Part shown: piece after piece, positions 28,918 to 34,272 of the stretch
How the letters are laid out: each line of letters starts with the position of its first letter
How positions within the stretch are numbered: position 1 is the first letter of the stretch
Assembly (NCBI GenBank): GCA_015065175.1
Contig: SVQV01000006.1
Location: 1-43,153, forward strand
Source: Oscillospiraceae bacterium
Lineage (GTDB): Bacteria; Bacillota; Clostridia; Oscillospirales; CAG-272
DNA length: 43,153 nt
Reading direction: 5' to 3'
The notes under the pieces: model-generated
The model's input: only the letters and a program-made list of their open reading frames with translations
Told to the model about the DNA's origin: nothing
The model's database searches: none
Translations under genes and position numbers: made by a program

Positions 28918-30813
28918 TTATTCAACCATAAGCTCACACACAAGCGAAGCAAGCTCGGAAGGATCGTTTAAAGAAAGACCGCTTATGAGTCGCGCGTTAG
29001 AATAGATAATTTTACTGTATTTTGCAAGCTTATCTTTATCCTCGGAGTAAAGAGATTTGAGCTTTTCGGAAATAGGATGATTGAGGTTAAGCTCAAGAAC
29101 AAGCTCTGCCTTTATCTGATTTTCTTCCGCCCCGGGCATTCTGTTAAGTGTTTTTTCCATAGTTACCGATATTTCACCTTCACTCGAAAGGGTAGCAGGG
29201 TGATTTCCGAGAGTGGAGGAAAATCTTACGCTGTGAAGGCTTTCGCCGATGCTTTCCTTTATAAAGTCGAGCATTTCCTTAGAGGCTTCGTTTTCCTTTT
29301 TAAGAGCTTCCTTTTCCTCGTCTGTTGAAATATCGAGGTTTTCCTTGCATACGTTAAGGAACTCCTTATCCTCGTATGTGTGGAGTATCTGTAATGCGAA
29401 TTCGTCAACATCCTCTGTAAGATACAAAACCTCATATCCGCGCGAAATTACGGATTCTACCTGAGGGAGCAGAGAAATCTTTTCTATACTGTCGCCTGTC
29501 GCGAAATATATCTTCTTCTGTTCCTCTGTCATATTGGATACGTATTCGTGCAGAGTTACGAGCTTTTTCTCTTTTGAGGACTTAAACATGAGCAGATCCT
29601 GCAAAACAGATTTATGCATACCGTAATCACTGTAAAGACCCCACTTTAGCTGTGTGCCGAAAGCAGTGTAGAATTTCTCATATCCCTCACGGTCGGAGTC
29701 AAGCATCTTCTTAAGCTCTGCCGCTATCTTCTTTTCTACCGATTTTGCGATAGCCTTGAGCTGTCTGTCCTGCTGAAGCATTTCACGGGAAATATTTAGC
29801 GAGAGATCAGACGAATCAACGAGACCGTGAACGAAGCTGAAATAATCAGGAAGCAGATCCTTACATTTTTCCATTATCATAACGCCGCTTGAATATAACT
29901 GCAAGCCCTTTTCGAAATTCTTGCTGTAATAGTCAAAGGGGGCGTGAGAGGGAATAAAGAGCATAGCCTCAAAGCTTACGCCGCCCTCTGCTTTTTGGCG
30001 GATGGTTTTCAATGGTGCTTCATAATCATAGTATTTTTCTTTATAGAAATTAGCGTATTCTTCTTCCGTGACCTCGGAGTCGGGCTTCTTCCAGAGAGGA
30101 ATCATGCTGTTGAGAGTCTCGTCCTCTGTTACCTTTTCATACTCGTCCTTTGAGCCTTCTTTAAGCTGCTCGTTTTCGGTAAGCATACGGATAGGATATC
30201 TTATATAGTCGCTGTATTTCTTGATAAGCATGCGGAGCTTGTATTCCTCAAGAAATTCACTGTACTTTTCATCTTCGGTGTCTGCCTTGATATAAAGTGT
30301 TATAACAGTGCCTTCCTCTGCCTTTTCGCAAGGGGAGATTGTATAGCCGTCAGCACCCTCGGATTCCCAGACATATGCCTCATCCGCACCGTGAGCGCGG
30401 CTCTCGACGGTTATTTTGTCAGAAACCATAAAAGCGGAGTAGAAGCCGACACCAAACTGTCCTATTATATCTATTTCTTCTTTATCCTTGTTTTCGGGAT
30501 TGTTCTTGAAGTCAAAGGATCCGCTCTTTGCAATAACGCCTAAATTATTGTCAAGCTCATCCTTCGTCATTCCGCATCCGTTGTCGGTTATCTTGAGAGT
30601 TCTTGTCTCTTTGTCCGGGGTAAGACGTATCTCATAATCGTTTCTCGATTTGTTTGAAGTGCCGTCTGTAAGAGAAGCAAAATAGCTCTTGTCTATTGCA
30701 TCGCTTGCGTTTGATATAAGCTCACGAAGAAAGATCTCCTTGTTTGTATAAATGGAGTTGACCATCATATCGAGAAGCTTTTTGGATTCTGTTTTGAATT
30801 GTTTTTTAGCCAT
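28918..30813 (-). CDS. htpG: Molecular chaperone HtpG (bacterial Hsp90)
   Basis: HtpG is an ATP-dependent dimeric chaperone. The 631-residue protein starts with the N-terminal ATPase signature NKEIFLRELISNASDAIDK and has GCGMT and GQFGVGFYSAFMV for nucleotide and lid contacts. The middle domain carries the SREMLQQDR segment. The C-terminal dimerisation domain is complete. A CIRCE element sits on the promoter, so HrcA probably represses it until heat or protein stress. In Bacillus subtilis htpG is not under HrcA, so this differs. A Cys-rich membrane protein follows in the same direction. Confidence 0.97.
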   Translation of the reverse strand: MAKKQFKTESKKLLDMMVNSIYTNKEIFLRELISNASDAIDKSYFASLTDGTSNKSRNDYEIRLTPDKETRTLKITDNGCGMTKDELDNNLGVIAKSGSFDFKNNPENKDKEEIDIIGQFGVGFYSAFMVSDKITVESRAHGADEAYVWESEGADGYTISPCEKAEEGTVITLYIKADTEDEKYSEFLEEYKLRMLIKKYSDYIRYPIRMLTENEQLKEGSKDEYEKVTEDETLNSMIPLWKKPDSEVTEEEYANFYKEKYYDYEAPLKTIRQKAEGGVSFEAMLFIPSHAPFDYYSKNFEKGLQLYSSGVMIMEKCKDLLPDYFSFVHGLVDSSDLSLNISREMLQQDRQLKAIAKSVEKKIAAELKKMLDSDREGYEKFYTAFGTQLKWGLYSDYGMHKSVLQDLLMFKSSKEKKLVTLHEYVSNMTEEQKKIYFATGDSIEKISLLPQVESVISRGYEVLYLTEDVDEFALQILHTYEDKEFLNVCKENLDISTDEEKEALKKENEASKEMLDFIKESIGESLHSVRFSSTLGNHPATLSSEGEISVTMEKTLNRMPGAEENQIKAELVLELNLNHPISEKLKSLYSEDKDKLAKYSKIIYSNARLISGLSLNDPSELASLVCELMVE

Positions 30814-30856: not shown

Positions 30857-30899
30857 ATTATAGCACTTGGTTTTAGCACTGTCAATAGCAGAGTGCTAA
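30857..30899 (-). promoter_or_regulatory. CIRCE operator overlapping the htpG promoter
   Basis: TTAGCACTG-N9-GAGTGCTAA (30873-30899) matches the 9-9-9 CIRCE consensus with one mismatch. Read on the minus strand, the -35 box TTGACA (30885-30880) lies inside CIRCE, followed by a 17-bp spacer and TATAAT (30862-30857) with extended -10 TGC. HrcA binding would therefore cover the -35 region. The operator identification is from consensus; hrcA itself is not in the window. Confidence 0.92.
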
Positions 30900-30972: not shown

Positions 30973-31059
30973 TGGTGCCGGTGATCGGGGTCGAACCGAT
31001 ACGGTATCGCTACCACTGGATTTTGAGTCCAGCACGTCTGCCAATTCCATCACACCGGC
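30973..31059 (-). tRNA. tRNA-Leu (anticodon CAA)
   Basis: A class II tRNA with long variable arm on the minus strand. The acceptor stem GCCGGTG pairs with CACCGGC, the D-arm carries GGAATTGGCAGAC, the anticodon stem CTGGA/TCCAG holds the loop CTCAAAA (anticodon CAA, reads UUG), and the T-arm has GGTTCGACCCC-type sequence. Discriminator A and CCA are encoded. Its own promoter is TTGATT (31111-31106), 17-bp spacer, TATAAT (31088-31083) with extended TGC, and the terminator follows at 30935-30969. Confidence 0.96.
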
Positions 31060-31226: not shown

Positions 31227-31255
31227 TTGATATACCCAAAAAAATATTGTATAAT
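31227..31255 (+). promoter_or_regulatory. Promoter of the prephenate-dehydratase-like gene
   Basis: TTGATA (31227-31232), a 17-bp spacer and TATAAT (31250-31255). The start codon follows about 40 bases later. Confidence 0.75.
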
Positions 31256-31295
31256 ATATTATTATAATAATTTATGATGTTCGGAGATTTATATT

Positions 31296-32258
31296 GTGTC
31301 AGAGAAAAGCTGGATGGATTATAAAATGAAGAACGATAATATGCAGTCGGTTAAGGCTGAAAAAAACGCAGAAATTCTTTCCGCGCAGGCTTCAAAGCTT
31401 TCTTCTGAATTTGAAAAGAGGCTGGCACATCTGTCGGAGCTTTCGTCATACTTAAATATTTCTGATGTTACCGATGATCCGAACGAATATCTTACTCTGG
31501 TCTTTAAAGAGCTGTATTCTTACGGAAATAAATTTAATTTTCATTCCGAGCTTCTGTCCGAGAATAAAAGGACGGTTTCCGAGGGCTTGAATTCTCTATA
31601 TGACTTTGATCGCGCGGTTTTGGCGGAAAATGTAGTAAAGAAATGGGAAGAAGCGAACGGTGAGGCTATGGATATAATGCTTCTGTTAAACGGCTCCGAG
31701 TTTTCAGGGGGACGCATTTCCTATGTAAAAAACCGATATTCCGACAAGGCGTTCGACATTCTTTCACCTTGTGTCGATGACAGTAAATTTCTGTATGCTC
31801 AGAATTTCCAATCAGTCTGCGAGGACATAACTCACGGCTTTTCGGAATACGGGATATTACCGCTCTCGGATATGCATGGCGGAATAGAAACAGTAAACAG
31901 ATTGCTTTCTGTCTATGAGCTTAAGATATGTGCCGTATGTGATATAATTACTCAGGATGATAATACAACACGCTTTGCTTTGGTCTCCGACAGGCTCTGT
32001 GTAAATTTAGAAGCGGAAAACAGATATTTTTCTTTTTCCTTCAATTCGGAGGAGCCTTATAAAATGCGCTCTGTTCTTTACGCCGCCGAGCTGTACGGAC
32101 TGTCCCTTTACGGTATGAAGGTCACTCCGTCTTATTCGGGCAGCTCGAATTATAAATTCACGTTCAGGGAGAACAGCGGAGACTTGGTTGCTTTATTTGT
32201 TTACTTAAAGCTTTTTTTACCTCAGTTTTTAATTAACGGAATTTATTTTGAAATTTAA
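31296..32258 (+). CDS. Degenerate prephenate-dehydratase/ACT-like protein, probably non-catalytic
   Basis: The 320-residue protein resembles a truncated P-protein. Residues about 140-218 align with the first lobe of prephenate dehydratase (RISYVKNRYSDKAF for the VxYxGPxGxYSxxA start; YGILPLSDMHGGIETVNRLL for the VPIENSxxGSV block). TRF (225-227) keeps the conserved dehydratase motif. Residues 243-320 look like the ACT regulatory domain (VLYAAELYGLSLYGMK). But the roughly 85-residue second lobe is absent, ENS is replaced by SDM, and the ACT GAL and ESRP motifs are lost. The helical N-terminus (about 20-90) could be a decayed chorismate mutase. Start GTG 31296 has GGAG. The assignment rests on remembered family motifs. 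Confidence 0.6.
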   Translation: MSEKSWMDYKMKNDNMQSVKAEKNAEILSAQASKLSSEFEKRLAHLSELSSYLNISDVTDDPNEYLTLVFKELYSYGNKFNFHSELLSENKRTVSEGLNSLYDFDRAVLAENVVKKWEEANGEAMDIMLLLNGSEFSGGRISYVKNRYSDKAFDILSPCVDDSKFLYAQNFQSVCEDITHGFSEYGILPLSDMHGGIETVNRLLSVYELKICAVCDIITQDDNTTRFALVSDRLCVNLEAENRYFSFSFNSEEPYKMRSVLYAAELYGLSLYGMKVTPSYSGSSNYKFTFRENSGDLVALFVYLKLFLPQFLINGIYFEI

Positions 32259-32277: not shown

Positions 32278-32538
32278 ATGATAAAGGAATTAAAATATAA
32301 AACAAGGGGCACTTGCTCACGTGAAATAGATGTAACCCTTGACGGAGACGTAATAGTTGACGTAAAGTTCGTTGCGGGTTGCTCGGGAAACACCTCAGGC
32401 GTTTCCGCACTTGTTCGCGGGATGAAAGCAGAGGATGCAATAAAAAGACTGAAGGGAATAAAATGCGGATTTAAAAACACATCCTGTCCCGATCAGCTCG
32501 CTATCGCATTGGAGCAGTGCTTGAAATCAGATTCTTAA
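32278..32538 (+). CDS. TSCPD-domain protein (TIGR03905 type)
   Basis: A short 86-residue protein containing NTSCPDQLA, the signature that names the TSCPD domain, which also occurs at the C-terminus of some class II ribonucleotide reductases. Cysteines C13, C35, C63 and C70 suggest a metal or Fe-S site. The free-standing family is widespread in Clostridia, and its function is not established. It has an adequate SD (AAAGGGA) and follows the preceding gene by 19 bases. Confidence 0.88.
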   Translation: MIKELKYKTRGTCSREIDVTLDGDVIVDVKFVAGCSGNTSGVSALVRGMKAEDAIKRLKGIKCGFKNTSCPDQLAIALEQCLKSDS

Positions 32539-32550
32539 TAGGAGATTTTC

Positions 32551-34272
32551 ATGAATTATACACAAGAATATGAAAGATGGTTAAATTCTCCCGTTTTATC
32601 AAAAGCAGAAAAAGATGAACTCTTGAACATCAAGGACGAAGAAACAAAGGAACTTTGCTTCGGATCTTCTATGAAATTCGGGACGGCAGGACTCCGTTCT
32701 ACCATGAATTTAGGTCCCGCCTGTATGAATGTCTATACAGTCGCGCAGACGACACAGGGAATAGCCGAGCTTATAAAGACGGAAAACGGAGCGGAACGCG
32801 GAGTTGCCATAGCTTATGACAGCCGTAATAACTCCGAGCTTTTTGCGCATACATGCGCAGAGGTGCTTGCCGCCAACAAAATTAAAGTGTATGTGTTCGA
32901 TGATATCCGTCCGACCCCCGAGCTTTCCTTTGCGGTAAGAGAGCTTTCCTGTATAGCGGGAATAAATATCACAGCTTCTCATAACCCGAAGGAATATAAC
33001 GGTTATAAAGCATATTGGGAGGACGGAGCGCAGATATCTCCCGAGCAGGCAAAGACGGTCAGCTCGGCATCCGAAAAAATAGATGTTCTGGGCGGAGCCT
33101 CTAAAATTGACTTCGCCTACGGAGTAAAAAGCGGAATAATTCAAATTCTTGGAAAAGAATTTGACGATAAATACCTCTCCGCCGTCATGTCTACATCCAT
33201 AAACAGAGAGCTTTTTGAAAAAGCGGGCGACGAGCTGAAAATAGTTTATACGCCCCTTCACGGCGCAGGGCGAACTCTTGTTCCCGAGGTCTTGCGCAGA
33301 GTCGGACTTAAGCATATTTATACGGTGGATGCGCAGATGAACGCCGACGGCAATTTTCCTACAGTGAAAAAGCCCAACCCCGAATATGCCGATGTTTTTG
33401 CGCTTGGAATTGAAATAGCGGAAAAAGAGGGAAGCGACCTCGTTATAGCTACCGACCCCGACGCCGACAGAGTAGGCGTTATGAGCAGAACAAAGTCGGG
33501 TGCTTTCGAGACTATAAGCGGTAACCAAATGGGTGCGCTTTTGCTTGATTACGTTATAAGCGCAAGACGTGAAAAGGAAGCTCTTAAAAAAGGCGCATAT
33601 GCCGTAAAATCTATCGTTTCCACCGATATGGCTTCAAAAATTGCAGAGGTCAACGGAATAAAGCTTCACGACGTACTTACAGGTTTTAAATATATCGGCG
33701 AGGTAATAAAGAATTATGAAACCGATAAAAAAGAAGGCGAGTTCATCTTCGGCTTTGAGGAGAGCTACGGATATCTTTTCGGAAGCTATGCAAGAGACAA
33801 GGATGCTGTCGGCGCCACTATGATGATATGTGAAATGACCGCATATTATAAAACGAAGAATATGACGCTTTCGGATGCGCTCGAAGCACTCTATTCAAAA
33901 TACGGCTTGTACGGAGAAGAGATGACCGATATTTATATGGAAGGTCTCGACGGAATAGAGCGCAGAAGGAAAACAATGCAGGCATTAAGAGATGAGCCGC
34001 CTGTGGACATAGGAAACAGCAAGGTCATATCTATAGGAGATTATGACGAGGGATACGTTCATTTTCTCGATGACGGCAGAAAAGAACCCACAGGGCTTAT
34101 AAAGAGCGACGTTTTGTATTACACTCTTGAAAACGGTGACAAGGTCATTGTACGTCCGTCGGGTACCGAGCCTAAGATAAAAATATACTTCCTTGCTCAC
34201 GGCGACGATAAAGTGCTGCTTGAAGAAAAGATACAGGCATATAAAAAGGATGCAGAGGGCTTTGCAAAATAA
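32551..34272 (+). CDS. pgcA: Phosphoglucomutase/phosphomannomutase family phospho-sugar mutase
   Basis: The enzyme interconverts glucose-1-phosphate and glucose-6-phosphate (alpha-D-phosphohexomutase superfamily). The phosphoserine is S143 in ITASHNP, the metal site is DPDADRVG, KFGTAGLR is at the start of the fold, and RPSGTEPKIK is the C-terminal phosphate-binding motif. Length 573 matches the long PgcA type rather than the 450-residue GlmM. It would connect glycogen made or broken by the glg cluster to glycolysis. SD AGGAG. The gene follows the TSCPD protein by 12 bases. Confidence 0.93.
   Translation: MNYTQEYERWLNSPVLSKAEKDELLNIKDEETKELCFGSSMKFGTAGLRSTMNLGPACMNVYTVAQTTQGIAELIKTENGAERGVAIAYDSRNNSELFAHTCAEVLAANKIKVYVFDDIRPTPELSFAVRELSCIAGINITASHNPKEYNGYKAYWEDGAQISPEQAKTVSSASEKIDVLGGASKIDFAYGVKSGIIQILGKEFDDKYLSAVMSTSINRELFEKAGDELKIVYTPLHGAGRTLVPEVLRRVGLKHIYTVDAQMNADGNFPTVKKPNPEYADVFALGIEIAEKEGSDLVIATDPDADRVGVMSRTKSGAFETISGNQMGALLLDYVISARREKEALKKGAYAVKSIVSTDMASKIAEVNGIKLHDVLTGFKYIGEVIKNYETDKKEGEFIFGFEESYGYLFGSYARDKDAVGATMMICEMTAYYKTKNMTLSDALEALYSKYGLYGEEMTDIYMEGLDGIERRRKTMQALRDEPPVDIGNSKVISIGDYDEGYVHFLDDGRKEPTGLIKSDVLYYTLENGDKVIVRPSGTEPKIKIYFLAHGDDKVLLEEKIQAYKKDAEGFAK

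Follow-up and report, generated by a model that had tools for sequence, protein, structure and literature searches.

Given that a gene in an Oscillospiraceae genome appears to encode only part of a prephenate dehydratase (PDT), we questioned whether its product is a decaying remnant, a working enzyme, or a protein retained without catalytic activity. The gene, here called X, lies at 31296..32258 on the forward strand of a 43,153-nucleotide stretch (GenBank assembly GCA_015065175.1, contig SVQV01000006.1, positions 1 to 43,153; the window) and is an intact frame of 320 amino acids with the start codon GTG. We are highly confident that X originated from a P-protein (AroQ chorismate mutase, PDT and ACT domain) and is a pseudoenzyme. 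The fuller reading, in which this lobe-less P-protein derivative acts as a non-catalytic regulator or scaffold, is assigned a probability of roughly 0.55. X adds a pseudoenzyme to an enzyme family already known and does not represent a separate kind of system.

Homology to P-proteins and the missing lobe

The domain order of X is a helical N-terminal domain, PDT subdomain 1, no subdomain 2, the TRF strand and an ACT domain. The parts of the gene are as follows.

31296..32258, forward strand: gene X, very probably a P-protein-derived pseudoenzyme without lobe 2
31296..31691, forward strand: residues 1-132, three-helix N-terminal domain, probably a degenerate AroQ chorismate mutase domain
31707..32000, forward strand: residues 138-235, PDT subdomain 1 and the returning TRF strand, from profile search and predicted fold
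31866..31874, forward strand: residues 191-193, SDM in the place of the PDT ENS motif, from alignment
31950..31955, forward strand: residues 219/220, deletion point of PDT subdomain 2, alignment-dependent by a few residues
31968..31976, forward strand: residues 225-227, TRF, from profile alignment
32013..32255, forward strand: residues 240-320, ACT domain without intact GAL/ESRP, from predicted fold and alignment

Scanned as a single sequence, the window's X matched PF00800 at 18.8 bits (E 0.0015), below the curated cut-off of 25.2, and the NCBIfam PDT model at E 0.12; it gave no match to solved structures. A profile of 26 relatives (A1) matched the PDT structures 2qmx (E 2.5e-5) and 3mwb (E 1.9e-4), the latter aligning on either side of a gap as two stretches that are each weak alone, and 11 of its 26 members matched PDT singly at E <=1. 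Residues 17-320 aligned with a profile of 24 P-proteins from the order with one large gap (E 5.3e-16), and comparison with a profile of 36 P-proteins gave E 1.9e-20, so that X shares with P-proteins both domain order and a collinear full-length match. Across this gap the 24 P-proteins each have 79-84 residues, whereas the X sequences have none in 70 cases of 71 and three in the remaining one (identical full sequences were removed from the 71 rows, a few of which are the same gene with another start). The absence before TRF of a second lobe of about 85 residues, as proposed in the initial annotation, is thus borne out, and none of the homologues carries that lobe. Chance or a frameshift was ruled out as the cause, since the lobe is absent from 71 of 71 sequences.

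Structure prediction, suggested earlier as a check for an unrelated fold, returned the PDT fold minus one lobe. Together with the profile alignments it upholds the earlier view that the first lobe, TRF and an ACT-like tail are kept; the C-terminal part has the beta-alpha-beta-beta-alpha-beta ACT order. Helices were modelled in the N-terminal domain at residues 3-51, 62-74 and 88-121. Full-length P-protein profile alignments run through this domain, and P-proteins in five genomes of the class (G452, G609, G503, G607, G546) match profile A5 from positions 6-19 to 213-215; the domain is probably a worn AroQ domain, judging from these alignments. No stand-alone chorismate mutase was among the fold matches listed, which carries no weight against an AroQ origin as residues 1-132 were not searched alone. 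Mean identity among the 71 X sequences is 18% in the N-terminal domain, 32% in the PDT lobe and 25% in the ACT domain. Several X homologues pass the PF00800 cut-off on the first half of the profile alone (for example 37.8 bits over positions 9-77 in genome G363), and such members could be called prephenate dehydratase, a misannotation by which metabolic models of these Clostridia would go wrong on phenylalanine synthesis.

Residue loss, retention and rate of change

Residues were compared between the 71 X sequences and 24 P-proteins, with up to six states per column listed for X. The columns of S208 and Q215 (E. coli numbering), conserved PDT residues of lobe 2, are gaps in 71 of 71 X sequences; the P-proteins have Ser/Thr and Gln, respectively, in 24 of 24. 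At R11, R28, K39, D48, R51, E52, S84 and Q88 of E. coli, the AroQ catalytic residues, the window's X has A, R, L, gap, gap, gap, D and L. At the places of K39, R51, E52 and Q88, none of the six states listed for X is that of the P-proteins, and the S84 place holds Asp or Glu in 64 of 71 and Ser in two. The ENS motif, replaced by SDM in the window's X as initially annotated, is kept in some homologues (Glu 48/71, Asn 19/71, Ser 21/71). TRF is intact in the window's X, and the corresponding columns hold Thr in 25, Arg in 20 and Phe in 27 of 71. The phenylalanine-binding GAL and ESRP are no longer kept as motifs, in line with the earlier description: the window's X has P and M at the GAL Gly and Leu and K-V-T-P at ESRP, and across the 71 sequences Gly and Leu of GAL occur in 9 and 43, and Glu, Ser and Pro of ESRP in 4, 25 and 35. 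The available parts of PMC10845154 state roles for the TRF, GALV and ESRP motifs, those of PMC11980547 do so for TRF and ESRP, and mutation of the TRF Thr is reported there to have abolished activity of one studied PDT. Since most catalytic and phenylalanine-binding residues are gone, X is very probably a pseudoenzyme; its loss of activity is read from these residues and the missing lobe, as the initial annotation had supposed.

Other positions are well kept in X. The ACT-tail Gly and Tyr, shared with P-proteins, persist in 68 and 63 of 71 sequences. X-specific conserved residues (Tyr143, Asn146 and Asp150) occupy a loop that reads GxxG in P-proteins and deviate in 12, 21 and 16 of 71, respectively. 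Conservation has shifted from the old active site to these three positions, and both potentially pairing domains persist in the model; this fits a non-catalytic, dimeric regulator or scaffold of the ACT type, our tentative proposal, held at somewhat less than even odds. The origin is well supported: very probably a P-protein was duplicated in an ancestor of one Clostridia family, and the copy first shed PDT subdomain 2 whole and afterwards its catalytic and phenylalanine-binding residues. X would no longer make prephenate or phenylpyruvate, may still dimerise through its helical and ACT domains, and may bind a ligand other than phenylalanine or a partner protein.

Several observations pull the other way. 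The N-terminal domain alone matched chorismate mutase at a non-significant E 0.035, which also makes its alignment columns uncertain. Mutase residues survive at the places of R28 (Arg 55/71), D48 (Asp 22/71) and R11 (Arg 8/71), as do the Thr of TRF, the Leu of GAL and the Ser and Pro of ESRP at the frequencies given above. The fast change of X described below could reflect weak constraint, and the function, dimer and ligand of X are inferred.

A single-protein search matched X in 26 of 59 genomes including the window's own, all congeneric. With profile A1, some match was found in 123 of 146 genomes of the same GTDB family, and X was counted in 108 of these by manual reading of the matches listed, the weak ones being listed up to a limit, leaving out genomes whose sole listed match was a lobe-1 stretch of a longer P-protein-like frame (the weakest match retained, in G378, has E 1e-10 over 84 positions). 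The relatives in the genus and the 108 family genomes reject X as a single-genome oddity. No full-length X was among the matches listed for 270 genomes of the order outside the family (295 less 25; best partial E 4.4e-10) or for 244 other genomes of the class (of 245, some of them order-mates; E up to 1e-9), these searches being samples that a highly diverged X could escape. The listed class matches stop between profile positions 208 and 215 and lie for the most part in frames 380-420 amino acids long, like genuine P-proteins. In quick trees with some long branches, one of them built from 95 rows of which 93 are distinct in the stretch used, X formed one clade with SH-aLRT 100; the simple reading is therefore a single origin.

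A decaying pseudogene or assembly artefact might be suggested by the low identity of X between species and by in-frame stops listed in 3 of 108 matches (G059, G424, G416). The stop in G059 looks like the gene's own end, since the frame (L114) finishes right after the tail motif. The other 105 matched stretches are stop-free, none of 71 sequences spread over many genera has the lobe, X keeps its signature residues, and the same two genes follow it in all 24 named loci, making decay or artefact scarcely credible. The earlier statement that X is not simply decaying stands on the uniformly absent lobe, the mostly lost mutase residues and the stop-free frames.

The genuine P-protein was also followed. 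Among X-bearing family genomes, a full PDT was found in 95 of 108, none in 12, and a contig-cut one in the window's own genome; the 12 include G338, G355 and G376, at 94-96% completeness. A separate complete pheA, sought in the initial annotation, thus exists in most X genomes, but the window genome's copy is cut and no aro genes were seen adjoining X. That copy is a C-terminal fragment, 133 residues long, at the beginning of a contig (L001:1-402, contig C124), with aroB- and aroC-like frames named by eye after it. Seven congeners have P-proteins 62-64% identical to it, which makes contamination an unlikely source. It reads TKF and RSRN; congeners have TRF in 12 of 12 and RSRP in eleven. Within the genus, 18 of 22 other genomes searched have a full PDT, and the four without are 63-72% complete. 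Mean pairwise identity in 12 genus genomes with both proteins was 28.4% for X and 50.3% for the P-protein, with X the less conserved in every one of the 66 pairs; among the twelve, G009 carries another P-protein type, which lowers the P-protein mean. In addition to its missing subdomain and lost residues, X therefore differs from P-proteins in a poorly conserved helical domain and faster evolution.

The P-proteins of 11 of the 12 genus genomes examined form their own type, and that of G009 groups with the type of other genera. From this grouping, the window's genus may have undergone replacement of both pheA and htpG.

Gene neighbourhood and alternative explanations

The surroundings of X in the window are as follows.

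28918..30813, reverse strand: htpG (Hsp90), divergent from X and not of the htpG class that precedes X in relatives
30973..31059, reverse strand: tRNA-Leu (CAA), upstream of X
31227..31255, forward strand: promoter-like site TTGATA-17-TATAAT, with 11 of 12 consensus positions matched
31283..31286, forward strand: ribosome-binding-like GGAG, 9 bases 5' of the X GTG, read from the sequence
32278..32538, forward strand: TSCPD domain protein (TIGR03905; 109 bits, cut-off 67.7), starting 19 bases after X
32551..34272, forward strand: phosphohexomutase gene (pgm), all NCBIfam matches below their cut-offs

The TSCPD gene is probably on one transcript with X, and lepA then hemW lie 3' of the phosphohexomutase gene. 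Of the earlier claim of an own strong promoter and an intact frame, the frame holds and the promoter amounts to the consensus match above. Directly 5' of the window's htpG, at 30857-30885 on the reverse strand, is a sigma-70-type promoter match (12/12) whose -10 is preceded by TG. In the 24 named loci, TSCPD and phosphomutase genes follow X in all 24, lepA follows both in 23 (the remaining contig ends), and tRNA-Leu(CAA) lies upstream in 23.

Given the frequent position of htpG, X could share a message with HtpG (bacterial Hsp90) and serve as its dedicated partner, such as a client adaptor or cycle regulator. Divergent-class htpG lies on the same strand directly upstream (matched part <=2.5 kb from the X match) in 77 of 108 X genomes, the two frames overlap by 1-4 bases in the three loci compared (L113, L114, L121), and the presence of X goes with that of Hsp90 at an odds ratio of 4.5 (Fisher p 0.006, a statistic that ignores kinship and incomplete assemblies). 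The link is strong as gene order, but it is not obligatory. Hsp90 is not adjacent in the same direction in 24 X genomes (in two it is on the same contig and opposite strand, one of them the window), no Hsp90 match was found in 7 X assemblies, and 29 family genomes have Hsp90 without a counted X. A diverged X was not found behind htpG in 20 of these 29 loci scanned with the profile at E 0.01; nine neighbour proteins at such loci, inspected by eye, resemble other families, among them biotin-ligase, diacylglycerol-kinase-like and sugar-transferase types. X also sits by nadC and ruvC in some genera: ruv genes adjoin it in 7 of 32 long-flank loci, 12 of which were chosen for non-adjacent htpG, with nadC too in five of the seven. 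In the window, htpG points away from X and belongs to the other class, which occurs in 18 genomes and in none of them directly before X (the 77 are all of the divergent class). We regard a dedicated HtpG partner as unlikely. Its more specific form, an operon-encoded Hsp90 partner made from a dead phenylalanine-biosynthesis enzyme, whose ACT domain reads a small molecule while the lobe-1 face or helical domain tunes HtpG, seems improbable; lineages that swapped or lost htpG would then have kept X through other clients, and X would tie amino-acid state to proteostasis. If the htpG linkage were functional, X would point to an unrecognised bacterial Hsp90 partner.

A rather unlikely reading of the sequences is that X has acquired, on its exposed lobe-1 face, a new site for catalysis or ligand binding. 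This would account for Tyr143, Asn146 and Asp150 in the former GxxG loop, and PDT-type proteins can take other substrates, as the accessible text on GqqA reports (PMC8192741); the deviations at these three positions count against it. Quite unlikely, in turn, is a regulatory subunit of the genuine P-protein that mixes through the helical or ACT domain and tunes phenylalanine synthesis. X does descend from a P-protein, keeps both pairing-capable domains in the model and mostly shares its genome with a full PDT, but presence of X and PDT is unassociated (p 0.41), a full PDT match is missing from 12 X assemblies in addition to that of the window, and X persists in a genus with mostly another P-protein type. 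The neighbours of X at the loci examined are htpG, TSCPD, sugar phosphomutase, lepA, or nad/ruv genes, with no aro genes. What links X to phenylalanine synthesis is its descent alone. The initial suggestion that X is a sensor or a regulatory remnant left from aromatic amino acid metabolism is not established by these results: aro neighbours are lacking, the phenylalanine motifs are unkept and those 12 assemblies have no full PDT. The non-catalytic regulator or scaffold is the reading we prefer.

Several details of the loci may be added. By PF00183 score, two htpG classes occur in the family, the window's class in 18 of 130 Hsp90-bearing genomes and the divergent class in 112. The X tree, with 24 of its 71 rows labelled htpG-adjacent, requires 11 changes of that state, and htpG adjoins X in 8 of 25 genus loci (L003-L027). 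L080 reads tRNA-Leu, htpG, X, so the window may show what this order became once htpG was lost. The loci with X by ruv genes are L109, L111, L160, L163-L165 and L167, five of the seven having X between nadC and ruvC. X also occurs in a 96% complete assembly without an Hsp90 match or a full PDT match (G338:C9:44263-44877).

Comparison with known proteins

The best Foldseek match of an X homologue model was GqqA (7ALZ, E 2e-10). According to the available part of PMC8192741, 7ALZ is a proteolysed crystal form of the Komagataeibacter europaeus protein missing residues 86-170; it resembles X in consisting of lobe 1 and ACT only, and its lobe loss is a crystallisation accident of a protein active when whole, whereas in X the loss is encoded in the gene. 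The Streptococcus mutans entry 4LUB is titled prephenate dehydratase and has part of its chain not modelled. The truncated soybean arogenate dehydratases GmADT13B and GmADT12D are also family members with missing parts; as far as the accessible text of PMC10845154 goes, their losses are C-terminal (ACT and the end of the catalytic domain), unlike the middle lobe lost in X. A literature search across titles and the beginnings of abstracts, with most subscription papers outside its scope, returned no lobe-less PDT paralogue or htpG-tied PDT relative. X shows a two-lobed binding-protein fold that has been cut to one lobe in nature and long kept in that form with the regulatory ACT domain retained, useful as a test of how an enzyme changes into a non-enzymatic protein. 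The 24 named X loci come from metagenome-assembled genomes of Clostridia and Oscillospiraceae, and 21 of them carry ruminant-gut names.
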